Source of the DNA: Pirellulales bacterium
GTDB taxonomy: Bacteria; Planctomycetota; Planctomycetia; Pirellulales; JADZDJ01
Assembly (NCBI GenBank): GCA_035656635.1
Contig: DASRSD010000073.1
Location: 1-64,000 of the forward strand
Length of the DNA stretch: 64,000 nt
Reading direction: 5' to 3'
The position numbers were made by a program, and so were the translations under genes. Under the pieces are notes generated by a model. It was not told the origin of the DNA. It did not search any database and saw only the letters and a list, made by a program, of their open reading frames with translations. Below are positions 15,383 through 37,820 of this stretch, one piece after another; position 1 is the first letter of the stretch, and each line of letters starts with the position of its first letter.

Positions 15383-17863
15383 CTAAAACTCCAGCAATCC
15401 ATGGTATTCCGGAAGCACCCGCACTTGCTTGATTTGCAGCACTTGGTTTTGATTGGCAAAATTGGGGACAGCACTTGTGGGCAGGTCGGCCAAAAAAGGA
15501 GCATTTTTATCTATGGGGCGAAACGAGAAATACATGCCGTCGGCTGCCAGACGCGATAAAAACCGCCGCAAGCCAATTCTCCACGGCTGTCCAAAATAAA
15601 AGCCATCGTCGACCAACTCTCCATTGATGAACGCCAGGCCGGTGTCGCCGACGTAGTCGATGTCTAAAAATACATCATTAATTCCCTCAGGCAGCGCAGC
15701 TTTGTCACTGCTAAGGGTCAACGTTTTTCGATCGGCAACTTTCGCATGGATGAACGGTTCGACTTCCGGGAAACTCCAGGTGTACGCCGACATCGAGCGG
15801 TGCGGAGCAGACGCCACGCTGAGCGCCGTGCCGTCATATTTAGGCGCCGCCGGCAAAGCGGGATAGACCGCCAAGGAAACGGCGTTATTGCCAATGCTGG
15901 AAACTTCTACTCCTTCAGGCCGCTCCAGGAGTGTCGCCTCGGAAAATGCCAGCCGGCGGCCAGTCTTCGTTGCAATCCGCCAAGCGTGTAATGCCATCGA
16001 CTTGGGAAAGACAACGAACGTGACCGGCTGGCCCTGATCATTATCGACAGTGAATTCGGAGATTTTGTCCGGCGCGCAGCGAACCACCGACAGGTTATTG
16101 CCGATGGCAACGGCTTGGCAATCGTCCGACTTAAAATGCGTGAGCAACTTAGATTGGAAAGCGAATTCTGGAGGGATGCCTTCAACTGCCGCGAAGGCGA
16201 AGCACGACTTGCCGTTTTCTGCCAGCGTTGCCAGTGGCTGCGCAGTGGCATACCTCACGCGCACGCCGCCGAAATCGAAGTTAAACGGGAAAAATGTGGC
16301 GGTTTCGCTTTTCAGCGTGAAGCTGGAATCGGCGGGAATTTGCAGCACGCCATCCTTAGTTTGCAGTGTAATTTGTTGATCGACGAGTTCGTGCATCGGA
16401 ACGTGATCTTGGTAATTGTGCAAAAAGACAAAGCCTCCATCATCGCGAGTGCGCACGGCAAACCGCAGCTGATCTACGTCCTTGGGCTTCATGGCTGCAG
16501 CATTCTCGGGAAGCACGCTCACCATGGGCGCGAGCTGTGAGCCAAAATCGTTCAAGAAAAAGTGAATCAGCTTGAGATAACCGTACGATTCGGCCAATTG
16601 CCCGTACTCTCCGATGGGAGCTTGGAAATCGTAGGAGATTTTAGGCACGCCGGAGGGTTCTTCGCTCATGAACGATTTTTTACCGCGCGGCGTGGCGCCG
16701 CCGTGGAACATGTAATAACCAATCGCATTGGCGCCGCCGCCTAGTTCGCGAATCACAAGCGATTCGATCGAACGCGCCGAAACCGTCGGCCGGCGGCTGT
16801 AGGTGATCATAATTCCTCCCCCCAGCTCCGCGCCGAACGACGGATAGTGCAGCGGCTGGTAGGAGACTGGCGAGTAATCTGGCTGCTGGTGTAAATCGCG
16901 ATACAAATAAAGTGGCGAAGGAGTAGGCTTTTCCCAAGTGGGAAAGGGATACGCGGAAGTGACAGGAATCGTGGCATTTTCCACCACCGCGGCGTTGCCC
17001 CAGCCGGTGGCCGTGTACAGCGGCGCATCGAGGCCGCATTTATGCGCCAGCTCAAGCAAGCTGGCCATGTGCTGGCGGCCCTCTTCGGCGTACGAATCTT
17101 TCTTCGTTGCAGTGGAAACGCCGGGCGCGAAGTAGCGCTGCTCGTCGGCATTGGTCCATTCCGGCGGCTGGCCGGGATACGAAAACGCCCAGGGCGCCGC
17201 CGAGTGGTGCAACTCGTTCTCGAGCTGAAACCCAATGACAGGGCCGCCATCTTTGAATAGTAAACCGACAAGTTGCTTGCCGATCTCGCCGTACAGGCGT
17301 TCCACATAGCGCAGATAAGGCGCGTCATTGGAGCGCACATTAAACGGTCGGCCGTACAGCCAGTCGGGCAAGCCGCCGTTGCGAATTTCGCCGTGGCAAA
17401 ACGGTCCTAGCCGCACGATCACTTGCAGGCCATTTTGGCCACACAGTTGCACAAATTTTCGCAGGTCTTTGTCGCCGGTCCACTCAAATTGCCCCTCGAT
17501 TTCCTCGTGCAGATTCCAAAATACATAGGTGGAAACGATGTTAATTCCGGCGGCCTTTATTTTTTTCAGCGATTCATCCCATTCTGCGGCCGGAGTGCGC
17601 ACATAATGGAACTCGCCCATCACGGGCAACACCGGCTGCCCGTTCTCTTGCATGTATAAACTGTTGAATTCGATCGAACTCCCCTGAGAGTTTTGCCCTC
17701 CCAAGTGCAATTGGCCGCGCACAACTTCCGTTTGCGCGTGGCGAATATCGATTTCGTTTTTACTCGCGCTGCCGGCCTTCGGAGGCAAATCAGATTGAGC
17801 ATGTGCCGTAGTGGCCAACAGCGTGACGGCCATCGGCAGGTTGCGGAACAATGTACGATTCAT
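15383..17863 (-). CDS. GH35-type beta-galactosidase, exported
   Basis: A retaining beta-galactosidase-like enzyme (826 residues from the ATG at 17863; the frame upstream of it looks untranslated). A signal peptide ends near TTAHAQ. The catalytic barrel shows GEFHYVRTP, VSTYVFWNLHEE, VRLGPFCHGEIRNGGLPDW, and the acid/base Glu in GFQLENEL. The nucleophile Glu is probably in FGAELGGG. About 400 C-terminal residues of beta-sandwich character follow. It is the last gene of the line ECF sigma - FecR/LamG - GH53 - GH35, so it likely removes galactose from oligomers released by the galactanase. The family assignment is firm; the exact linkage is inferred. Confidence 0.88.
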   Translation of the reverse strand: MNRTLFRNLPMAVTLLATTAHAQSDLPPKAGSASKNEIDIRHAQTEVVRGQLHLGGQNSQGSSIEFNSLYMQENGQPVLPVMGEFHYVRTPAAEWDESLKKIKAAGINIVSTYVFWNLHEEIEGQFEWTGDKDLRKFVQLCGQNGLQVIVRLGPFCHGEIRNGGLPDWLYGRPFNVRSNDAPYLRYVERLYGEIGKQLVGLLFKDGGPVIGFQLENELHHSAAPWAFSYPGQPPEWTNADEQRYFAPGVSTATKKDSYAEEGRQHMASLLELAHKCGLDAPLYTATGWGNAAVVENATIPVTSAYPFPTWEKPTPSPLYLYRDLHQQPDYSPVSYQPLHYPSFGAELGGGIMITYSRRPTVSARSIESLVIRELGGGANAIGYYMFHGGATPRGKKSFMSEEPSGVPKISYDFQAPIGEYGQLAESYGYLKLIHFFLNDFGSQLAPMVSVLPENAAAMKPKDVDQLRFAVRTRDDGGFVFLHNYQDHVPMHELVDQQITLQTKDGVLQIPADSSFTLKSETATFFPFNFDFGGVRVRYATAQPLATLAENGKSCFAFAAVEGIPPEFAFQSKLLTHFKSDDCQAVAIGNNLSVVRCAPDKISEFTVDNDQGQPVTFVVFPKSMALHAWRIATKTGRRLAFSEATLLERPEGVEVSSIGNNAVSLAVYPALPAAPKYDGTALSVASAPHRSMSAYTWSFPEVEPFIHAKVADRKTLTLSSDKAALPEGINDVFLDIDYVGDTGLAFINGELVDDGFYFGQPWRIGLRRFLSRLAADGMYFSFRPIDKNAPFLADLPTSAVPNFANQNQVLQIKQVRVLPEYHGLLEF

Positions 17864-17917
17864 AACACAACTAACTGGCGAAGACAGGAACGATGAAAGC
17901 ACGGGAGGATCGGCCCG

Positions 17918-19570
17918 TTACATTTTGCTTCGGCGGCGACAGCTCCGCAACGCAACGGTTGCCGAAATAGCCAGCAGCCAAACCGGGGCGGGCTCTGGAA
18001 CGGGGTTGGTCGAGCCGCTGCCGGCCAAAAGGGCATTAAGCATTCCCTGCAGATCGGCATTGTTGACCACGCCGTCGTGGTTGAAATCGCCCAGATCAAG
18101 CAGTTCAGGCTGCGTGATGCTATTGGTTGATTCAAAGGCGGTTAAATTGGTCAGCGCAGAAAGCATCGCCGGAATATCGGAGCTGTTGAATTGGCCATCG
18201 CCGTTGAAATCGCCTTGCAAGGGAGCAAACGCGCTCAGGGCCGCCAACGCATTATGGCTGCTGGTGCTGCCGAACAGGGCCGTTGTTCCGCCGTTGTTAA
18301 TGAAAAAGCCGGGAACTTGCACCGCCTCTGGATACCAATACAGCAGTCCCTCTCCATCGTGCCCTGGCAAGCTCAGCATCAAATTCCGAACGGCAGCCAA
18401 CTCCGCTTCTTGCCCCGCCTGCGTCGCCGGCCACGTGGAAATCGGCTCCGTTCCGCCATTCGCAGTTCCTGTGTACGGGTAATCGGTTTCCAACAGCATG
18501 ATCCGTTTTGAAGGATTGATGTTTGTGCCGTTGTTAGTGTTGATATTCGCCAATGCTGTCAGGTTCGATTGCAAAAAGCTGAACGACTTCTGCGAATTAT
18601 TGCTGGACGGATAATAATCTACCCCTTCCACGTCGAAATCGGTCACGTTGCCCAGCGACACGCTCGTAATATTGCTATAGAAAGATTGCGGCTGGTCATT
18701 CATATCTCCACTATCGATACTCAGGGCAATGGGAATATGCTGGCCGAGGCTTTGTGCATCCCGTACTCCCGCAATCGCCGCATTCAGCAGACCGCCAAAA
18801 TTCTTCCAGCTTTGGTTGGTTTGGGCCTGCGTGGGTTTGTTGTTGGTCAGCCCCAGCCCTGAGTAGGGAGTATTTTGATACAGAATTCTTCCGCCCACGG
18901 CCGCGGCGCCCGAGCTTCCAGTTTGCCACAACATGCCGTCGGTCGTTTCATTGCCGATTTGCACCATATCGGGCATCACGCCGGCATTTTTGAAGGACGT
19001 TAATGTATTCTGGGTATAGGTTTGAACGTCCGATTCTAATCCTGCCAAGGTCGTGTCCGCGTCCCAGCCTAGTCCTTGGTTAACATGCACGGGCTTGGTT
19101 TGATGGCCGGGGTCCGCCCAGGTGTCGGAGTAATGGAAATCCAACAAAATCTTCGCACCCGGGTCGTCGGCTTTAATTTGTTGGGCCAGCGTGATGTCGT
19201 AGGCAGTAGTTTGAATGGCGCCTGTGTTGGCATTGGTATAGGTTGTTGGCGGATTCACAAAAACTCGCAGCCGGAACATGTTCGCCCCGCTGTCGTACAT
19301 GATTTGATCCAAAGGCGCCGCGACGTTGTTTTGTGTAAACGTAATATTCTGCTGCTGCATGAACGTTTCCAGCGAAATGTCGCCGCCGACATAAAATGGG
19401 TACGCACCCAGCGTAAGCCGAGAGCAGTTTAAGAGCATGCAGCAAAGTATGCAGCCTATCGCGGCTCGTTTGTGCCATCGAACTTGCGCAAACGCATCGA
19501 GTCTAAATCGATCAGAAACGGTTTCACCCGAAGCAGCCATCGCACGCATTTCCCCCTTCACGCTCCTCAT
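17918..19570 (-). CDS. GH53 arabinogalactan endo-beta-1,4-galactanase with dockerin-like repeats and PEP-CTERM tail
   Basis: Secreted endo-galactanase (550 residues). A hydrophobic signal region lies at about 36-56. The GH53 barrel includes FRLRVFVNPP, LLDFHYSDTWADPGH, the acid/base Glu in MVQIGNETTDGM and the probable nucleophile in MLLETDYPY. Two EF-hand-like dockerin I motifs follow, GDFNGDGQFNSSDI and GDFNHDGVVNNADL. The C-terminus is PEP-CTERM-like: VPEPAPVWLLAI, a hydrophobic helix, then RSCRRRSK. This predicts export and sorting to the cell surface. It lies 44 bases downstream of the FecR/LamG gene and 54 bases upstream of the GH35 gene. An in-frame ATG at 19549 after GGGGGAA is an alternative start. 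Confidence 0.92.
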   Translation of the reverse strand: MRSVKGEMRAMAASGETVSDRFRLDAFAQVRWHKRAAIGCILCCMLLNCSRLTLGAYPFYVGGDISLETFMQQQNITFTQNNVAAPLDQIMYDSGANMFRLRVFVNPPTTYTNANTGAIQTTAYDITLAQQIKADDPGAKILLDFHYSDTWADPGHQTKPVHVNQGLGWDADTTLAGLESDVQTYTQNTLTSFKNAGVMPDMVQIGNETTDGMLWQTGSSGAAAVGGRILYQNTPYSGLGLTNNKPTQAQTNQSWKNFGGLLNAAIAGVRDAQSLGQHIPIALSIDSGDMNDQPQSFYSNITSVSLGNVTDFDVEGVDYYPSSNNSQKSFSFLQSNLTALANINTNNGTNINPSKRIMLLETDYPYTGTANGGTEPISTWPATQAGQEAELAAVRNLMLSLPGHDGEGLLYWYPEAVQVPGFFINNGGTTALFGSTSSHNALAALSAFAPLQGDFNGDGQFNSSDIPAMLSALTNLTAFESTNSITQPELLDLGDFNHDGVVNNADLQGMLNALLAGSGSTNPVPEPAPVWLLAISATVALRSCRRRSKM

Positions 19571-19614
19571 TCCGCCCGCATTCCCAAAAACTGCCTCGCC
19601 CCGGCAAAACTCTG

Positions 19615-21414
19615 CTATTTTGCGGTGTTGTTATCCGCGATTGAAATGGAATATTTGTCGGTCAAATAGGCTGTGGTATCGGCAAGCTCTTTAGGCGACA
19701 ACGCTTTGTTGTAAATCAGCAGTTCCGCCAAATCGCCATGAAAGAACAGCTCCTTCCAAGCGTGTCGACCAATGATTTTGCGCGAAGTAATGGCTTGCGG
19801 CGCGAAAGCCTTGGCTTCGCCGCAGTTTTCGCCATTGATAAACATTTTCGACTGGCCGTGCGAATAGTCGTACACATACGAAACCACAACGGGCACATCG
19901 GCCCCCACTTGCGGCGCATCGACCCGGCCCGATTCAACCGTCGCGCTGCCGACAAAACCCGCAAATACTTGCCCGGTCAATAGGGTCGGCTTGAACTCCT
20001 CGGCCAGCAGCGGCTCGCCAATTTGCAACACGCCGGGGTGCAATGTGTTGCTTAGGAAGCCATTTGCCTCGCGGCTTGGCGGGCCGTCATAATTCAAAAT
20101 TTGGCCTCCCCACCGGCGCTTTGGATCGTAAGACTGCGACGAAAACTGGCACACGCACAGCACTGTTTGATCGTCGGTGGTTTCCAGCGGCGTAGTGACT
20201 AAATAATTCGATTTGCCATCGAACCGCACGGCCGGATGCCCATGGAGTGCCTCGGGCACCAATAACGGCCGGGCCGATTCCTCGTTTTGCGTGGCGTCTT
20301 CTCCCGATCGATTGTCGCCGTACAAAATATCGGGCCAAGTGACCACGCGCTGGTGGGAATCGATCTGCACGGCGGCATCGGCGGCCAACCACAGCGCCAG
20401 CTTGCTGGGCACCAGCAGCTTGGAAGGCGCTGCGGCCGTGCGTCGAACTGCCATCAGCAGCGCGAACTGTTGCTTGTCGAAGGCGATGTCGCTCGATTGG
20501 CCACTGGGCAACTGGAACTGCATGGCGTTGTCGGCAGTGACGTGAATCACGTCGCTGTGCTCGGTCGATTCCTTTCTCGCCTGGCTGCAGAGCACTTCCC
20601 CTTCGAACACGTGCAATTCGGTGCGGCCATTAGAACCCACACTGATGCCAAACGCAGTTCCCAAATCGACAAAATCGACCCCCGGCGAGCGAATGGCGAA
20701 CGAAAATGCCCGATGCGGAACGTTGGCGGTTATTTTGCCCGATCGCAACACGCCCACCATCTGGCTTTCAGCGACAAATTCACACGGACCTTGCAACACT
20801 ACCTCCGCACCGCATTCAAACGTTACTTTGGCCATCCCCGAATGCAGCGCGATGTGGCTCCCCTTGCTAAGCAATTGACCCGGGTGAAACTCGGTCGCGC
20901 GCGGCTGCCAAACTCCGTCGACTAATTGCGTTAACGTGGCCACAACGTCGGTATTATCGACATCGCGGGCGGTAGGCACTTCGCTGAGCCAGGAATTGGT
21001 GTGTTGACGAAAAACCCACGCGGTGAGGCCCAGCAGCACGGCCGCAGCTGCGCCGGCCAGCCACCAGCGGCGAGAAATGAACCGCAGGGACGAAGCATCG
21101 CGCCGGGCACGCTCGTCGGAAAACAACAGGTTCTTCGCGCCCGATGTTTGCTTCTTCGAGGCGGCAGTCAATTGCGAAAATGCCCGCTTCGACAAGCCCG
21201 GAGCGCCTTGAGCGAACTGATCCATAATCTCATGCAACGCGCTTTCGGTGAACAACTCCGAAATTTGCCGATGCAGCAGGCACCAGCGCGAAAAATATTG
21301 GGCGAATTCATTGTCGCTGAGCAGGCGCGATTCTAAACGCGCCAATTCGTCGGCAGTTACCGTTCCATCGAGGTAACGGCTTAGCAGGAGATCGAATTCT
21401 GATTCGGCCGACAT
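19615..21414 (-). CDS. FecR-domain membrane protein with extracellular LamG domain (putative anti-sigma sensor)
   Basis: A 599-residue protein from the ATG at 21414, two bases after the sigma factor stop. The N-terminal 100 residues (SEFDLLLSRYLDGTVTADEL) resemble the cytoplasmic anti-sigma segment of planctomycete FecR proteins. One membrane helix follows (WWLAGAAAAVLLGLTAWVF), then a FecR-type beta domain (GMAKVTFECGAEVVLQGP, VDFVDLGTAFGISV). The C-terminal half is a LamG/concanavalin-like domain (KMFINGENCGEAKAF, HGDLAELLIYNKALSP). LamG domains often bind glycans. The genetic linkage to a galactanase suggests that it reports galactan outside the cell to the sigma factor; this role is an inference. 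Confidence 0.85.
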   Translation of the reverse strand: MSAESEFDLLLSRYLDGTVTADELARLESRLLSDNEFAQYFSRWCLLHRQISELFTESALHEIMDQFAQGAPGLSKRAFSQLTAASKKQTSGAKNLLFSDERARRDASSLRFISRRWWLAGAAAAVLLGLTAWVFRQHTNSWLSEVPTARDVDNTDVVATLTQLVDGVWQPRATEFHPGQLLSKGSHIALHSGMAKVTFECGAEVVLQGPCEFVAESQMVGVLRSGKITANVPHRAFSFAIRSPGVDFVDLGTAFGISVGSNGRTELHVFEGEVLCSQARKESTEHSDVIHVTADNAMQFQLPSGQSSDIAFDKQQFALLMAVRRTAAAPSKLLVPSKLALWLAADAAVQIDSHQRVVTWPDILYGDNRSGEDATQNEESARPLLVPEALHGHPAVRFDGKSNYLVTTPLETTDDQTVLCVCQFSSQSYDPKRRWGGQILNYDGPPSREANGFLSNTLHPGVLQIGEPLLAEEFKPTLLTGQVFAGFVGSATVESGRVDAPQVGADVPVVVSYVYDYSHGQSKMFINGENCGEAKAFAPQAITSRKIIGRHAWKELFFHGDLAELLIYNKALSPKELADTTAYLTDKYSISIADNNTAK

Positions 21415-21416
21415 CT

Positions 21417-21974
21417 TCAGCCTGCTCCTTTTGCCAGTTGACGGTGGATGCATCCATACAACACCGTGCGAATGCGGTGCAGCATGACAAATACTCCGTC
21501 ACTCGACATGCCAAACCGCTGGGCAATGTCGGCCACCTTTGCATTTTGGCTGTAGCGCAATTCCAAAACTTCCCGCCGTCGGCCTTGGATTTTTTCCAGG
21601 CACGTCTTTAACGCCGCGCGCCGGTCTTCCGCTTCGTGCCCCACTTGTTCCAACGCCTGCTCCAACTTCGTTAACGCAGTCTCACTAAGCACCAACCGGT
21701 CGCGGGCCCGGGAACGGTAATACTTCAACACGCGATTTCGGGCAATTCCCAAGGCCCAGGAAACAAACGAACGGTTGCGATCGAACGTCGAATATTTTTC
21801 CGCCGCGATTTGGGCCACTTCCTGAACCAGGTCCTCCGCATGATGCACATCCAACACATTGGCCGTCACGTAGGCTGAAATGATTGGTTGCGATTGCACC
21901 CACAAGCGCGCAAGTTCGCGCACGGCACTGTTCTGCGGCGAGGTTCCTTCTTCGTGCGGTGCGTCCGAAACCAT
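21417..21974 (-). CDS. ECF-type RNA polymerase sigma factor
   Basis: A 185-residue sigma-70-family protein from the ATG at 21974; the open frame reaches a TTG at 22064. Region 2 is seen as HHAEDLVQEVAQIAAEKY and FVSWALGIARNRVLKYYR, and region 4 as RREVLELRYSQNAKVADIAQ with the recognition helix GMSSDGVFVMLHRIRTVLY. The architecture and the following FecR-LamG gene match planctomycete-specific ECF groups. It probably controls its own line of genes (GH53, GH35) and perhaps the divergent PEP-CTERM genes. No target promoter could be read with confidence. Confidence 0.93.
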   Translation of the reverse strand: MVSDAPHEEGTSPQNSAVRELARLWVQSQPIISAYVTANVLDVHHAEDLVQEVAQIAAEKYSTFDRNRSFVSWALGIARNRVLKYYRSRARDRLVLSETALTKLEQALEQVGHEAEDRRAALKTCLEKIQGRRREVLELRYSQNAKVADIAQRFGMSSDGVFVMLHRIRTVLYGCIHRQLAKGAG

Positions 21975-22555
21975 CGGTATTTGGCCTGCTGCTCTAGGGA
22001 GGCAATAATCGGCCCTATTACCCTTACCCGGTCGGCGTAAATCTTTACTTAGAATCTGTGGCAATTAAGCGTGCAATCGACCATTTTCCAATACAATTCG
22101 CTGGTCCAGCCATCGCCGGACCAAACTATCGGCATAGGCTCTGCGCCACAAGGACAGGGCCGTTCAATGGACGCCGCGGTTTCGCACCACGTTAAACTCT
22201 TATGGGTTAGCAATTTACGTCGTTGGTATAAAGAACCGTCTTCAAAGTCCGGCTCCTCAGCCGCCGCCCCGATTGTCCCTGCCGTAGTTGGCCGACCGCT
22301 TCGCGCGATGCTCGGTCCAAATTATTTGCCAGATTTTGGTTAAGGTTCCGTTCGCAGAGGGGAACTTTAGTAACGGCAGGCTATTTCAGGCCAATCGCGG
22401 GCGATTATTCGGGGGAACGGCGGCAACTTGTTGGTTGTCCGTTGGCACCCTGACCAATCGTCCTCAGCGAAGTCGGATACTCACGGGACAGCAGAGGCAC
22501 GAGGCACCGTGTTTGCCATTTCCTTCCATCGTTTTTGCACCCGGAGTCGCGACTC
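21975..22555. other. Divergent intergenic region between sigma factor and PEP-CTERM genes
   Basis: About 580 bases without a credible gene. It must contain promoters for both divergent operons, possibly recognised by the sigma factor itself. A tandem heptamer GAGGCAC-GAGGCAC is seen at 22494-22507, 49 bases before the PEP-CTERM start. The frame at 22071-22343 has no family resemblance and I do not call it. Confidence 0.5.
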
Positions 22556-23317
22556 ATGTCCCTCAGCTTCCACCGCTTTCCGGCCCTTGGCGGACTAATT
22601 GTTCTTTCCCTTTTCGCCTGCACCACTTCCGCACTAGCAGATTCTTACACTCTCGGCGATACCGCAGGAGGCCACTGGAATACTGACTATGTCCAAGGCT
22701 TCAATACTTCGCTTATCGGGCCCAGCGGCACTGCCCCCAGCGGCCTGAACAACGGCGACCCGGTCTATCTTACGCAGTTTCAGTTCTTCAAATCCGGCAA
22801 TGCTGATTCCGCCGCCAACATCCAACTGGCAATCATCAACAACATTTATTCTGGCAGTCCGACCATTCCCAACATGACGGAAAGCTCCGGTCCGTTTGTG
22901 GGCATTTCCACCAATACCATTGCCAGCACCGCGAGCTTGGCAACCGGCGATGCGATCACCTTCACTTTCAACAATCTCCAGCTCAGCTACGGGACCGATT
23001 ACGCCGCCTATTTTGTCAACGTGGGTGCCGGTGGTGCCTTGACCCCGGTCCTGGTGTCAACATTGGACGCTAATTACGCCGACCAAGGCGGTGGAGATTT
23101 CCATCCCGTGCCAAATTACGGCACTGATTCTCAATTCAATTACACCACAAGCAATTCCATCAGCGGTGGTTTCTTCAGTGCTTATTCGTACGCCGGTGAC
23201 GCTAATTTTTTGGCAACCCTGTCATACACTGCCGCTCCCGAACCTAGTTCCATCATTCTGGCACTAGGCGGATTCGGTGTGCTGGCACTCGCTGCCCGGC
23301 GCCGAGTGTGTCGCTAA
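22556..23317 (+). CDS. PEP-CTERM surface protein, function unknown
   Basis: A 253-residue exported protein: signal peptide (ALGGLIVLSLFACTTSALA), a Ser/Thr/Asn/Gly-rich beta-type body and a PEP-CTERM tail (PEPSSIILALGGFGVLALAARRR). The segment LTQFQFFKSGNADSAANIQ is closely matched in the next gene, so the two are paralogs. No enzyme motif is seen. It is probably sorted to the cell envelope by an exosortase system; none is encoded in this window. Confidence 0.82.
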   Translation: MSLSFHRFPALGGLIVLSLFACTTSALADSYTLGDTAGGHWNTDYVQGFNTSLIGPSGTAPSGLNNGDPVYLTQFQFFKSGNADSAANIQLAIINNIYSGSPTIPNMTESSGPFVGISTNTIASTASLATGDAITFTFNNLQLSYGTDYAAYFVNVGAGGALTPVLVSTLDANYADQGGGDFHPVPNYGTDSQFNYTTSNSISGGFFSAYSYAGDANFLATLSYTAAPEPSSIILALGGFGVLALAARRRVCR

Positions 23318-23383
23318 GGCTCCTAAAAACTTACACGGAACTTCACGACCGCTACTCGAAGAGGCAATTCTAGGAGGCGGCAT

Positions 23384-24553
23384 ATGCTTCGGATGCTGAA
23401 ATTATCAGCGATTCTCCTCGCGCTAGCGATACCGCTGGCTGGAAACATGTCGGCCACAGCCGCCACCGGAACATCCTCGTTTACGGGCGACGGCAATTGG
23501 GGTGGTGGAGGCATGTACGCCCAAGGTTTTTCTCTGGGAACTGGCGCCAGCGGGTTTGGCGTTACCGGCGCCACCGGCTCTACCGCCCACCTAACCCAAT
23601 TTCAATTTTATAAGTCGGGGTTGGCGGATGCTGCCAATGTTCAACTGGCCATTGTCAGTAACTATTTCATTGCGTTGGATCCCACGACCCATAGCTTTAG
23701 CAGCACCGATGCAGCGGTCGTTGGTCTTTCGTCAAACACGCTGAATGTAACCAGCGCAAATTACGCCGTTGGCGCGCCCATCAATTTTACGTTTAGCAAT
23801 CTTCCCCTGACATATGGTCGTGGTACGTACGATCAGAATGGTCTGCCCGTGTTCGAATCGCCCGATTACGCAGCGATTTTCGTCAACAATAACGGCGGCA
23901 CGCTAACACCGGTTTTTACTCCAGTGCTCATAACCAACTACACGCAGGTGCAAGATCCGCCAGATGGATCGCTTAGCGACGGATCGGCAACAGGTGCATC
24001 CGCGGTCGGTACGAATGGTGATTGGACAGAGTACGTTCCCTCGCACGATTACGGTTATCGCCGTGATTATAACGACGGCACGACTCAGCATTTCGGCGAT
24101 CAATTCAAAGCGGCCAGTAATTTCTTTAGCACGGACAACACCTCGCTTTCCACATTCGGCCCCTACTATGGCGACGTCGACTTCACCACCACTTTCACGT
24201 TCACTCCCAAACAAGGCGATTTCAACGGCGACGGTCATTTCGACTCCAGCGACATAGCGGCCATGGAACAGGCGCTGATTAATCTCAGCGGATTTGATTC
24301 GGCCCATGGCTTAAGCCCGGACGACATCAAGGCCATGGGCGATTTCAACGGCGATGGCGTCGTTAACAACACCGACCTGCAAGGCATGCTGAACGCACTG
24401 CAAAGTGGCCAAGGCTCGCTTGCCGGAGTTCCGGAGCCGGGCAGTCTGGCACTCTCGGCATGGGCCGCAGTTGCCTTTGTACTGTATGGCCGGCGCGTAC
24501 AAAAAAACCGTTTGCAATTGCCACAAGTGTGCCAACTTTCTGCGGAACGATAA
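23384..24553 (+). CDS. PEP-CTERM surface protein with dockerin-like repeats, paralog of the preceding gene
   Basis: 389 residues with a strong AGGAGG at 23372-23377 six bases before the ATG. After a signal peptide (ILLALAIPLAGNMSATAA) the body repeats the preceding protein's layout (LTQFQFYKSGLADAANVQ, PINFTFSNLPLTYG). It then adds two EF-hand-like dockerin motifs absent from the paralog, GDFNGDGHFDSSDIAAM and GDFNGDGVVNNTDLQGM, before the PEP-CTERM tail (VPEPGSLALSAWAAVAFVLYGRR). The dockerin pair is like that of the GH53 on the other strand. No cohesin gene is visible in the window. Confidence 0.84.
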   Translation: MLRMLKLSAILLALAIPLAGNMSATAATGTSSFTGDGNWGGGGMYAQGFSLGTGASGFGVTGATGSTAHLTQFQFYKSGLADAANVQLAIVSNYFIALDPTTHSFSSTDAAVVGLSSNTLNVTSANYAVGAPINFTFSNLPLTYGRGTYDQNGLPVFESPDYAAIFVNNNGGTLTPVFTPVLITNYTQVQDPPDGSLSDGSATGASAVGTNGDWTEYVPSHDYGYRRDYNDGTTQHFGDQFKAASNFFSTDNTSLSTFGPYYGDVDFTTTFTFTPKQGDFNGDGHFDSSDIAAMEQALINLSGFDSAHGLSPDDIKAMGDFNGDGVVNNTDLQGMLNALQSGQGSLAGVPEPGSLALSAWAAVAFVLYGRRVQKNRLQLPQVCQLSAER

Positions 24554-24597
24554 GTCCACACGCGCAAGCAGTGTGCGGAAGTTCGCCGATCAATCTC

Positions 24598-24638
24598 CCC
24601 CCGCTCCTGGCGTGCCTGCGGCGCCGGGGGCCTTTTTT
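24598..24638 (+). terminator. Intrinsic terminator after the PEP-CTERM gene pair
   Basis: GC-rich hairpin: CCCCCG (24598-24603) pairs with CGGGGG (24625-24630), with an inner GGCG/CGCC pairing, followed by CCTTTTTT. It lies 45 bases after the stop at 24553 and 30 bases before the DUF1559 start, so it separates the two plus-strand units. Confidence 0.75.
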
Positions 24639-24667
24639 GACAAGGTCTTTTTGATAAGGCCTGGCTC

Positions 24668-25789
24668 ATGAAGAGACCAGCAACAAACACACACCGAAAT
24701 GCGCGACCGGCCTTTACGCTGGTCGAACTGCTGGTGGTGATTGCCATTATTGGCATTCTCATTGCGCTATTGCTGCCGGCCGTCCAAGCGGCACGGGAAG
24801 CAGCACGCCGCACACAATGTTTGAATTCTATTCGCCAGTTGGGCTTGGCGTGCCTGAATTACGAGTCAACGAAAAAACACTTTCCCTCCGCGCTCTACGA
24901 CGAAAACGGCAGCGACCACGTAGGTCCCTATGGATTTATTGCCATTGTCACGCCGTACATGGAGGATAAGGCGCTTCACGACTTGATCAATTTCACGTTC
25001 CGGTGGGATATTTCACCAAATGTCGACCAAGGCGTGCCCACCACGGTGATTCCATTTGTGAAGTGCCCCTCGCAGGACTACAACGAACCAATCATCATGT
25101 TCTCCGGCATCTCCGGACCAGCTGCCGGCACGCTCACGACGGGTCCAGAGCGCGCCCACTACTATGCCGTGATGGGCGGCAAGTTCGCTGACACATGCCC
25201 GGGAAATCCGCCCTGGGAGTTAACCGGTTGTTTGCCCACTGCTTTCGGCGGGCCCACCTATCCACCTCAGCCAACTTGGCGCGGCGGCATCGCCACCAAC
25301 GGCGTCATGTATCCGGCCAGCAAGGTTCGCATCAGCGACGTTAGCGACGGCACCAGCAAAACGTTATTAATTGGCGAATGCTCGTGGGATTATAGTTCCA
25401 AGCTAGGTTATGTTCCACCGGGCTGGTACGCAGGAGCGGAGGTATGGGGAAATTACCCGGGGTTCGTTGATCATGATGCAGATCTGAAAAATACTATGGG
25501 TCCCCCGGCCGCGACTGCCGAAGGTTTCTGGATGATTAATGCGGTCAATGTTTATTACGGCATTACGGGTGCTAGTGTGCAACCCAGCGATCTGAATCCG
25601 CAGGTCGGTTACAATGCGCCGAAGATTTCCAAACACAACGATTTGAGCTTCGGCAGCAAGCATTTCAACGGCTGCAGTTTTTGCATGGCCGACGGATCAG
25701 CTCACTTTCTAAGCGCAACTACAGATCTTGGGGTCCTTAAAAATCTAGCCAACCGCCACGACGGCCAGCAAGTGAGCCTTGACCAATGA
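24668..25789 (+). CDS. DUF1559 pseudopilin-like protein
   Basis: A 373-residue member of the large planctomycete DUF1559 family. It has a type IV pilin-like prepilin segment ([19 protein letters not shown], then [16 protein letters not shown]), the usual body with conserved Asn/Gly/Trp residues, and the C-terminal signature LSFGSKHFNGCSFCMADGS. Cellular role unknown; members are thought to be processed by a prepilin peptidase and displayed at the envelope. The stop overlaps the GH53 start as ATGA, coupling it to the enzyme. Confidence 0.93.
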   Translation: MKRPATNTHRNARPAFTLVELLVVIAIIGILIALLLPAVQAAREAARRTQCLNSIRQLGLACLNYESTKKHFPSALYDENGSDHVGPYGFIAIVTPYMEDKALHDLINFTFRWDISPNVDQGVPTTVIPFVKCPSQDYNEPIIMFSGISGPAAGTLTTGPERAHYYAVMGGKFADTCPGNPPWELTGCLPTAFGGPTYPPQPTWRGGIATNGVMYPASKVRISDVSDGTSKTLLIGECSWDYSSKLGYVPPGWYAGAEVWGNYPGFVDHDADLKNTMGPPAATAEGFWMINAVNVYYGITGASVQPSDLNPQVGYNAPKISKHNDLSFGSKHFNGCSFCMADGSAHFLSATTDLGVLKNLANRHDGQQVSLDQ

Positions 25790-26880
25790 TGCGAACCCGG
25801 CGGTTTTGTTTAATTTGCGTGCTGGTGCTGGGATTGGCCGAATGCTGTTTCAAATCAGGTGTAAGCTGCGCCGGCGAAAACGAATATGCCATCGGCGCCG
25901 ATCTTTCGTCGTCAGCCCAGGCGGAGCAAAGCGGCATGGTTTTCAAAGACGGCGACCAGCCTAAGCCGGTGCTGCAACTGTTCAAAGATCATGGTTACAA
26001 CTGGATTCGCTTGCGGCTGTTTCACACGCCCTCGCGGCTGCCCAACAATTTGCAGTACACGCTGGCCCTGGCCAAGCAAGCCAAGGCGCTGGGTTACAAA
26101 TTTCTGTTGAATTTTCACTACTCCGATACCTGGGCCGACCCGCAAAAGCAATTCATTCCCAAGGCCTGGGAGAAAATGTCGCACGCAGAGCTTACTGATG
26201 CGGTGTTCGCTTACACTCGCGATTGCATTGCCGCCTTCCGTCAAGCAGAGGCCTTGCCTGACATGGTCCAAATTGGCAACGAAATTACCGGCGGCATGTT
26301 GTGGCCCGATGGACGGCTGCCCAATAACTGGAGCAACTTTGCCGATTTGCTAAAAGCGGGCATTCGGGGCGTCGATGCCGGCCGCGGCGATGCGCCCATG
26401 CCGCTGATCATGATTCACATTGATCGTGGCGGCGATCAAAAAGGAACCAAATGGTTTTTCGATAAGTGCCAGGAGTATAGCGTGCCGTTCGATGTGATCG
26501 GCCAATCGTATTATCCATGGTGGCACGGCAGCCTTGACGACTTGCGCAAGAATTTGAACTTCATGGCCGAAACCTATCACAAAGATATTTACGTGGTGGA
26601 AGCCGCTTACAACTGGCGAACGGCCGAATACCGCGATAAGCCTGGCCCTTACCCCGAAACGCCCGCAGGCCAGCGGCAATTTCTGGAAGCCGTTAATCAA
26701 GCGGTGAAAGAGACGCCGCACGGCCTGGGCAAAGGCGTGTTTTGGTGGGAGCCGGCCGTCGGCAAAGGAGGCGTCGCCAGCCGCGGCATGTTCGACGCCG
26801 ATCACCGCGCATTGCCGGTCGTTCACTTATTCGACAAACCGACGACCGCCACTGCGGTTACTGCCCCGCCGGTCCATTGA
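25786..26880 (+). CDS. GH53 arabinogalactan endo-beta-1,4-galactanase
   Basis: A second, minimal GH53 enzyme (364 residues): N-terminal signal (RFCLICVLVLGLAECC) and a single catalytic barrel with no dockerin or PEP-CTERM tail. Motifs are WIRLRLFHTPSRLP, FLLNFHYSDTWADP, the acid/base Glu in MVQIGNEITGGM and the nucleophile Glu probably in YVVEAAYNWR. GKGVFWWEPA closes the barrel. It is likely periplasmic, or an odd lipoprotein, complementing the surface-sorted GH53. It overlaps the DUF1559 gene by 4 bases. Confidence 0.92.
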   Translation: MMRTRRFCLICVLVLGLAECCFKSGVSCAGENEYAIGADLSSSAQAEQSGMVFKDGDQPKPVLQLFKDHGYNWIRLRLFHTPSRLPNNLQYTLALAKQAKALGYKFLLNFHYSDTWADPQKQFIPKAWEKMSHAELTDAVFAYTRDCIAAFRQAEALPDMVQIGNEITGGMLWPDGRLPNNWSNFADLLKAGIRGVDAGRGDAPMPLIMIHIDRGGDQKGTKWFFDKCQEYSVPFDVIGQSYYPWWHGSLDDLRKNLNFMAETYHKDIYVVEAAYNWRTAEYRDKPGPYPETPAGQRQFLEAVNQAVKETPHGLGKGVFWWEPAVGKGGVASRGMFDADHRALPVVHLFDKPTTATAVTAPPVH

Positions 26881-26940: not shown

Positions 26941-28095
26941 TCAGAAGTTGTCTTTACCGCTAAAGCTAACGCCGTCCGCACGGTTGTGGAGCAACCGGTG
27001 GACTACTAAGTCGATGGTGTAAGGAATCGTGTGGACCGAGCCGTCGCAGTACACCATGTTGAAACCGGACACGTGCGCACTGCCCCAAATGTTGCCCTCG
27101 CTGTTCGACAGAAGCACAGTCGACTTCACATCAGCTTGGGGTACATTGACCGCCTTATCGGTCGGCTTAGGTTGGCCGTTGTTAACGTAGCTCCATCCTG
27201 CTGTCCGATACAAATCGTTATCCCAGCCGGTCAGCAAGAATTCATCGTCAGCCGGGTCGTCGCCAGTCATCCATTGGTCGACATATAAAAACTTCTCGCC
27301 CACACAATATGTATGCGTTAAGCCGTCGGTCACTTGCTTTAATCGCACCATGCTTCGGTAATACGAGATGCCATTGCAGTACATTTTGGTTGTGGCGTCA
27401 TCGGTACTGTCCCAGGTGGTAAAACTATCCATCGTGGTTACGCTGTTCGGATTTGCGCCCCCTTGGTTAGCGCTGCCGTCACCGGCGTTAATGGCATAAT
27501 CACCCCGGCAGACATTAGTGGGTACTAAATTACCCGCGACATTATAGAATTGGTCTTTGACATCGCCGTGGCTTGCATTCCCGTTAGCGGTGGTTATGGT
27601 CGTTGATGTCGGCGAAATGAAAAAGGTTGTGGAATCGGTGCGCCGCGAAGGGCACAAAAATACCGGCAATCCTTGCCCCATCATTTGACCGAGCTTTACG
27701 CTCAACGGCCCGGTGTTAGAGCCGTTATAGCTGGCGCCCAGGCCGAGATCGTGATCGGCCTTTTCTTCTAAGAACGTCAGCAGATTGAACGCCCAGCCTC
27801 CCGGCTGCCGCTTATCGTATCCGCGATTCGGATCACCAACCCAATCGAATCCCCAGCCTCCGGTCGGGAAAAATCCTTCGGTGCTGACGTGGTTTTGCAC
27901 TGCTAGACCAATTTGCTTGAGATGATTTTTACATTCATTCATTCGGGCTGCTTCTCGCGCCGCTTGAACCGCCGGCAGCAATAGCGCAATAAGAATGCCA
28001 ATGATGGCAATCACCACCAGCAGCTCGACCAAAGTAAAAGCGGTCCGACGGCGCCGAACACAAGTTCGATAAAAGCACAACATAAATTCGCCCAT
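26941..28095 (-). CDS. DUF1559 pseudopilin-like protein
   Basis: A second DUF1559 member (384 residues from the ATG at 28095; an ATG at 28083 is also possible). It has a positively charged leader ([17 protein letters not shown]), the family prepilin helix, then [14 protein letters not shown]. The C-terminus, [19 protein letters not shown], is the family end signature. It is convergent with the GH53 gene, 60 bases apart, and is not obviously part of an operon. Confidence 0.92.
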
Positions 28096-28711
28096 GGCTA
28101 TGGTTGTAGCTCGCTCGCAAATTCCACATCGACTTTGCGACCGATGGCTTTTGATTCCTTCCAGCTCACACCATTCCGGTTCACGCAATCTGCGATTGGC
28201 CCCACAGCGTTGGAGCATCCCCCTCTAGGCAGGAATCGCCCGAAAGATGATCCCACTCCGCCGGCGCGCTAAACTGCGAACTTCGGCATCCCAACTACAG
28301 GCCGTTCAACCTGGCAAACCCCCACGGATTATCGTTCCCACCCCACTAGTTTCCTCGCGATACTTCGGTGATGGAAACGCCCGGCCCACGGCCCTGTAAG
28401 TAATCGTAAACCCTCTGGCAAAATTACGAATAAATCTCACATACTCGTCGAATTGGGCCCGATCCGCGACTTTACCAACCGAAACGCCCCCGCCGGCCGA
28501 CTGATTGGGCCCGCCCCCGATGTGAACCAGGCGGCCATTGCCGCCCAGGCGATTTAGGTGGCAGACTCAACGCAAAATACCCCTCCATTTGGGGAATAAA
28601 TTGTGGCCTATATTTTCTTATGGGCTGTCGATCGGCGATCAAACTGCGCCCATGGGGTGGCTTTTTGCTAGCGCCGATTGGCTGAATGGCTATTAAATCG
28701 CGCAGCAACTC
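28096..28711. other. Divergent intergenic region between DUF1559 and histidine kinase genes
   Basis: About 615 bases. The frames here (for example 28472-28744 minus) show no family resemblance and overlap the kinase start, so I call no gene. It must carry promoters for both divergent genes; no clear consensus elements or repeats were found. Confidence 0.45.
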
Positions 28712-37529: not shown

Positions 37530-37820
37530 GTTGCAATAGAACTCCCAAGGTTGTTAGCACTCCCCCCCGGAGTACTATGGCTGAGCGCAGCGCGATTCGA
37601 ATTGCGTGGCAATCTGCCAGCGTACACCCCGAACGTTATAAGACTACCAAACGCCGCGCCGTCTCACAACTGACGGGAAAACCGAGTTAGTGTGACAATT
37701 TGCACATAGCCCGATGGTGTCAGTCGGGCAATTATCCTATGTAAAAATCAATCCTGGCCCACTGTCGAAAGACGTAGCGAGCGGTTCGAAGACCGCGGCT
37801 GCTGATCTTATAATGAACCC
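37530..37820. other. Divergent intergenic region upstream of the isomerase operon
   Basis: 291 bases between the minus-strand ara genes and the plus-strand LRR gene. It holds one copy of a short palindromic repeat (37701-37729, listed separately). TATAAT is present at 37809-37814 close to the LRR start, but without a supporting -35 I do not call a promoter. Confidence 0.4.
37701..37729 (-). repeat. REP-like palindromic repeat, family B, copy 1
   Basis: Reading the minus strand: GCCCGACTGACAC, then CATCGGGCTATGTGCA. GCCCGA pairs with TCGGGC. It matches the element at 57884-57912 at 26 of 29 positions, including the unpaired tail TATGTGC. Both copies lie between genes. Confidence 0.75.

Follow-up and report, generated by a model that had tools for sequence, protein, structure and literature searches.

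We describe here a divergent locus of a planctomycete genome that we read, with a probability of about 0.7, as a self-contained, substrate-induced galactan cassette, in which an ECF sigma factor would be held by a FecR-LamG membrane protein whose LamG domain would be the direct sensor. The initial annotation had proposed a sigma/anti-sigma circuit for galactan that lacks a SusCD pair and senses through LamG; this is still the best reading of the locus, in view of the co-inheritance of its genes, the exchange of GH35 for GH2 in relatives, the conservation of the LamG domain and the lack of a SusD match.

Organization of the galactan locus

The window, i.e. the whole stretch of 64,000 nucleotides that was analysed (contig DASRSD010000073.1 of a Pirellulales bacterium), carries on its minus strand four closely spaced genes. 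The first one (21417..21974) encodes an ECF sigma factor of 185 aa with Sigma70_r2/r4 matches; with 139.4 bits over nearly the full TIGR02989 model, for a cut-off of 124.55 bits, it belongs to this Rhodopirellula/Verrucomicrobium family. It is followed by the gene of the FecR-LamG membrane protein (19615..21414, 599 aa), a candidate anti-sigma factor and glycan sensor, then by GH53a (17918..19570), a GH53 endo-beta-1,4-galactanase with a dockerin-like and PEP-CTERM-like tail (Dockerin_1), and by a GH35 beta-galactosidase with a signal peptide (15383..17902, likely ATG at 17863). The gaps are of 2 bases between sigma and FecR-LamG, 44 between FecR-LamG and GH53a and, with the ATG at 17863, 54 between GH53a and GH35. 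We could confirm the places, order and spacing initially reported for these four genes, and the Pfam and TIGR02989 profile scores bear out their identities. However, the locus had been delimited to 15383-21974: the minus arm is right, but it is only half of a divergent locus, which is twice as large and whose other half at 22535-26880 had been missed.

This plus-strand arm encodes two PEP-CTERM proteins, a DUF1559 protein and a second GH53. In PEP1 (22556..23317) the PEP-CTERM motif alone is recognised, its domain being absent from Pfam, and PEPDOC2 (23384..24553) is by alignment a PEP1 paralogue, with a dockerin-like and PEP-CTERM-like tail (Dockerin_1). The DUF1559/SBP_bac_10 protein (24668..25789; PF07596, E = 5e-43) has a type IV prepilin N-terminus (N_methyl), and its stop is overlapped by 4 bases by the start of GH53b (25786..26880), the second endo-galactanase. 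A further DUF1559 gene on the minus strand (26941-28218), from a clade that differs from that of the cassette DUF1559, closes the locus. No galactose or oligomer importer was found among the genes of the window cassette.

A predicted route from galactan to galactose

GH53 enzymes are known as endo-beta-1,4-galactanases, and an endo-galactanase together with an exo-galactosidase makes up a full route from beta-1,4-galactan to galactose. Both GH53 copies match the family profile PF07745 (E = 6e-59 for GH53a, plus a dockerin match, and 2.5e-90 for GH53b) and have the two catalytic glutamates: GH53a aligns with solved galactanases, the GNE and LLET glutamates included, and for GH53b both glutamates are in place in its matches, among them 7osk and 1hjq. 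As for GH35 (PF01301, E = 6e-57), its nearest solved relatives are GH35 beta-galactosidases; the acid/base glutamate lies in an aligned ENE motif, the nucleophile being read by eye only.

Recurrence and co-inheritance

A search with the sensor over 397 genomes of the order gave five genomes with E below 1e-250 and eight more with weaker matches; in those weaker-match genomes that were inspected, no GH53 was detected by blast. When genome contigs were searched with a single sensor sequence no match was obtained, and an alignment query recovered Botrimarina. The matches on plasmids were discarded, being short and limited to the FecR region (17-21% coverage). The same gene set is present in five genomes of two families: the window genome (G000), G001 from the same genus, and G058, G068 and G111 from another family, G058 being the cultured Botrimarina colliarenosi Pla108. 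Since the order sigma/FecR-LamG/GH53 repeats in all five, chance co-location of the genes can be ruled out. The sigma orthologues of the four other genomes, found at the same place, are 57-84% identical.

The five sensors form one clade (bootstrap 100/100), as do the five sigma factors (99/94) and, among 46 DUF1559 proteins, the galactan-locus DUF1559 copies (100/100); according to these trees, sensor, sigma factor and DUF1559 are co-inherited as a set. The exo-galactosidase varies: it is GH35 in G000 and G001, a LacZ-type GH2 in G058 and another GH2 in G068 and G111. The GH2 gene lies in the sigma arm in G058 and G068, and in G111 after GH53b in the divergent arm, not after GH53a. This swap keeps the galactan chemistry, which suggests that both arms answer one signal.

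The N-terminal domain of PEP1 and PEPDOC2 was found in 4 of 98 genomes, which are precisely the ones of this set that carry the locus, and the fifth genome also has the PEP1 domain. Because this distribution matches that of the locus, the domain may well belong to a surface protein that binds galactan. A fold search with PEP1 gave nothing at E ≤ 0.001 with a weak model (pLDDT 66.7), too weak for its CBM6-like matches to be kept as evidence.

The nearest sister sensors (in G202 and G150) adjoin sulfatases, not GH53. This raises the question of the substrate, which could be another beta-galactan (arabinogalactan, algal galactan) and not plain pectic beta-1,4-galactan: the ancestral ligand may have been a sulfated galactan, and GH35 and GH2 exo-galactosidases are broad in linkage. 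We consider such a substrate unlikely, given that each of the five loci has two GH53 from a beta-1,4-galactanase family, that a GH28 gene (pectin; L083:16862-18280) adjoins the G068 locus, and that no sulfatase was seen among those galactan-locus genes that were scanned. The Botrimarina locus is flanked by SSF symporter, GH5-like and GH26-CBM35 genes (L082:14-5343). In another genome, G048, a GH53 is fused to esterase-like domains (L084:8443-11097), with no sigma/FecR-LamG pair adjoining.

The two flanks of the window locus (up to 15250 and from 28693) adjoin each other in G001, with about 0.5 kb between them and the same tRNA-Ala (L233), and the cassette is on another contig, away from this empty site; the locus has thus changed place as a whole during the history of the genus. 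Direct repeats were looked for at the two locus ends as insertion marks and none was seen. Outside its genus, the nearest relative of the window sensor belongs to another family, which, as far as the sensor tree goes, would suit horizontal transfer. A stretch of 42 bases near the tRNA-Ala of G001 (L233:9290-9331) has one 86% identical counterpart in the window (37690-37731).

The FecR-LamG protein as candidate sensor

The predicted model of the FecR-LamG protein (mean pLDDT 78.7) has N-terminal helices at 6-86, a long helix with the transmembrane segment at 116-143, a beta domain of FecR type at 157-310 and LamG at 339-587. It has the architecture of FecR-type proteins (N-terminal helices, one transmembrane helix, beta domain) and fits the topology first suggested for it, namely a cytoplasmic N-terminus, one membrane helix and outer FecR and LamG domains, with an orientation in the membrane that is presumed. 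The LamG domain matches Laminin_G_3 (E = 5e-9 in the profile search), like 21 of 24 aligned proteins. As for the putative FecR domain, PF04773 is matched by 20 of these 24 proteins, but the window protein itself has no match to this family. A zf-HC2 hint at the N-terminus scores below the cut-off.

In the fold search, the best matches of LamG were lectin-type jelly rolls, including domain 4 of the arabinanase AbnA (5hon, target TM 0.65). Many of the sensor's Foldseek matches are to unrelated proteins with a lectin-type jelly roll in common, and were rejected as having no functional meaning. The sensors of the clade that come from outside the genus share with the window copy 62-70% of their residues in LamG, 51-57% in the FecR domain and 28-45% in the cytoplasmic part, so that LamG is the most conserved domain. 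It also contains 14 of the 27 invariant positions specific to the galactan clade, including W435 and W553, slightly more than expected from the fraction of the protein that it occupies; these positions fit a contact with the ligand, without proving it. The LamG domains of the sister sensors are still about 50% identical although their neighbours are sulfatases, and LamG may therefore bind something common to both.

The DUF1559 protein could also take part in sensing. We found DUF1559 within 5 kb in 45 of 55 FecR-LamG loci from 12 relatives and in 7 of 40 control regions (Fisher p = 3e-10, the loci from related genomes not being independent). The counted regions were L085-L100 and L121-L160, the control regions were largely from the same genomes and placed by hand at round coordinates, and the gene calls were made in this analysis. 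This general association and the co-inheritance of the galactan-locus DUF1559 with the sensor would suit a FecR-LamG protein that is an anti-sigma factor whose LamG contacts the cassette DUF1559 protein or PEP1, the real receptor, in the manner of SusC or FecA; such a contact is described for Bacteroides, between SusC and the periplasmic domain of the anti-sigma factor (PMC3878776). On the other hand, the lectin-type fold of LamG and the clade-specific positions mentioned above fit a contact with the ligand itself, and we hold an indirect relay through a receptor to be improbable in comparison with LamG as the direct sensor.

M50 proteases are present in the genome and E. coli FecR is cleaved by RseP (PMC8144685), so that release by intramembrane proteolysis is possible for this sensor too. 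The same genome has other sigma/FecR pairs (L075, L076, L077), in which a different C-terminal domain replaces LamG; their C-terminal motif resembles WNGVT..GLP....GGDYVKTFNND.

A candidate promoter block between the two arms

In the intergenic region from which the arms diverge, the two same-genus genomes are most alike at 22314-22391 (no strand assigned), with 90-93% identity per 30 bases. This stretch contains GGGAACTT (22360), directed towards the plus arm, and GAACCTT (22348), directed towards the sigma gene, which is GAAACTT in G001. This candidate block resembles two back-to-back ECF -35 elements, a resemblance only. The shared promoter motif to be looked for upstream of 21974 and 22556 has a candidate in two genomes of one genus, but no clear equivalent or shared motif was recognised in G058 or G068. 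No credible second copy of the block was found in the genome of the window, the single match with 3 mismatches being at chance level, which points to a local regulon; a wider regulon sharing the block was rejected for this reason.

That the block is recognisable solely in two closely related genomes would agree with constitutive or otherwise controlled enzymes, beside which the sigma/FecR-LamG pair would be a passenger regulating something else. This seems very unlikely to us in front of the spacing of 2-54 bases, the five genomes in which the pair accompanies GH53, the enzymes that switch arms and the lack of another credible copy of the block.

Comparison with known systems and proposed mechanism

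In Bacteroides, ECF sigma/anti-sigma systems have been described (PMC3878776). Like the Sus-type PULs of Bacteroidetes that are governed by them, the galactan locus has an ECF sigma factor beside a one-helix anti-sigma candidate and, in the same cluster, the enzymes for one glycan, to which the regulator would be dedicated. In contrast, it has neither a SusC/SusD pair nor a transducing porin, its sensor bears its own LamG, and PEP-CTERM, dockerin-like and DUF1559 proteins are found instead. SusD had no match in the genome, in a search that was positive in the Bacteroides control; this absence is not absolute, since the genome is a draft of 95.6% completeness. A single weak TonB plug match was obtained, at the end of a contig and remote from the locus, and there is no TonB-dependent transducer among the locus genes, in agreement with the proposed lack of a SusCD/TonB pair. 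The locus would work like a sigma/anti-sigma PUL but falls outside the SusCD definition.

With FecI/FecR cell-surface signalling, the locus shares the candidate FecR domain, the single membrane helix, the N-terminal helices and the adjacent ECF sigma gene, but it has no FecA-type receptor and LamG is fused to the FecR domain. A dedicated regulator of pectic galactan use is also known from the PUL of B. thetaiotaomicron with BT4673, which is a hybrid two-component regulator (HTCS; PMC3878776) and not a sigma/anti-sigma pair. Compared with the other TIGR02989 ECF factors of Planctomycetes and Verrucomicrobia, to which it belongs by the cut-off, the window sigma factor seems tied to one substrate.

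We infer the following scheme. The FecR-LamG protein would span the inner membrane, its N-terminal helices keeping the ECF sigma factor bound on the cytoplasmic side, and its periplasmic LamG domain would bind galacto-oligosaccharides freed by basal GH53. This binding would release the sigma factor, perhaps through a site-2 cleavage like that of E. coli FecR, and the freed factor would transcribe both divergent arms from the one intergenic block. The two GH53 would cut beta-1,4-galactan and GH35, or GH2 in the relatives, would trim the oligomers to galactose. Surface-directed PEP-CTERM and dockerin proteins and the DUF1559 prepilin-like protein may hold or capture the glycan, replacing SusD.

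A larger planctomycete class

Judging from gene neighbourhoods, the galactan locus is not unique: it belongs to a large class of planctomycete loci in which an ECF/FecR-LamG pair occurs together with DUF1559, sulfatases and GHs. The DUF1559 gene often follows FecR-LamG immediately in the same orientation, or else diverges from the sigma gene. Among the nearest other neighbours, Sulfatase accounts for 20 of 155 proteins and is not among the 25 commonest families of 102 control proteins; the families listed further include several GH families, PEP-CTERM and PSD1/PSCyt proteins. In the literature searched, we found no description of ECF/FecR-LamG/DUF1559 loci and no function for ECF/FecR-LamG pairs; the planctomycete ECF survey (Jogler 2012) was outside its scope, and an earlier notice is possible.

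The sensing of complex polysaccharides by Planctomycetes and the coordination of their use without SusCD are poorly known. We tentatively suggest, as a possibility below even odds, that Planctomycetes own a general class of PUL with an ECF sigma factor, a FecR protein with a lectin-type sensor, a DUF1559 pseudopilin that would replace SusCD for capture, and swappable sulfatases or GHs; the galactan cassette would be one specialised case of it and the DUF1559 family a glycan-specific surface component. With 68 copies in P. limnophila (PMC10632474) and 74 in R. baltica (PMC2754498), DUF1559 is among the largest planctomycete paralogous families and has no established function, and, as a side result, its tie to regulons for polysaccharide use is what we consider most useful here. 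As the complete cassette is present in the cultured B. colliarenosi Pla108, the questions of polysaccharide sensing and of the role of DUF1559 are directly testable.
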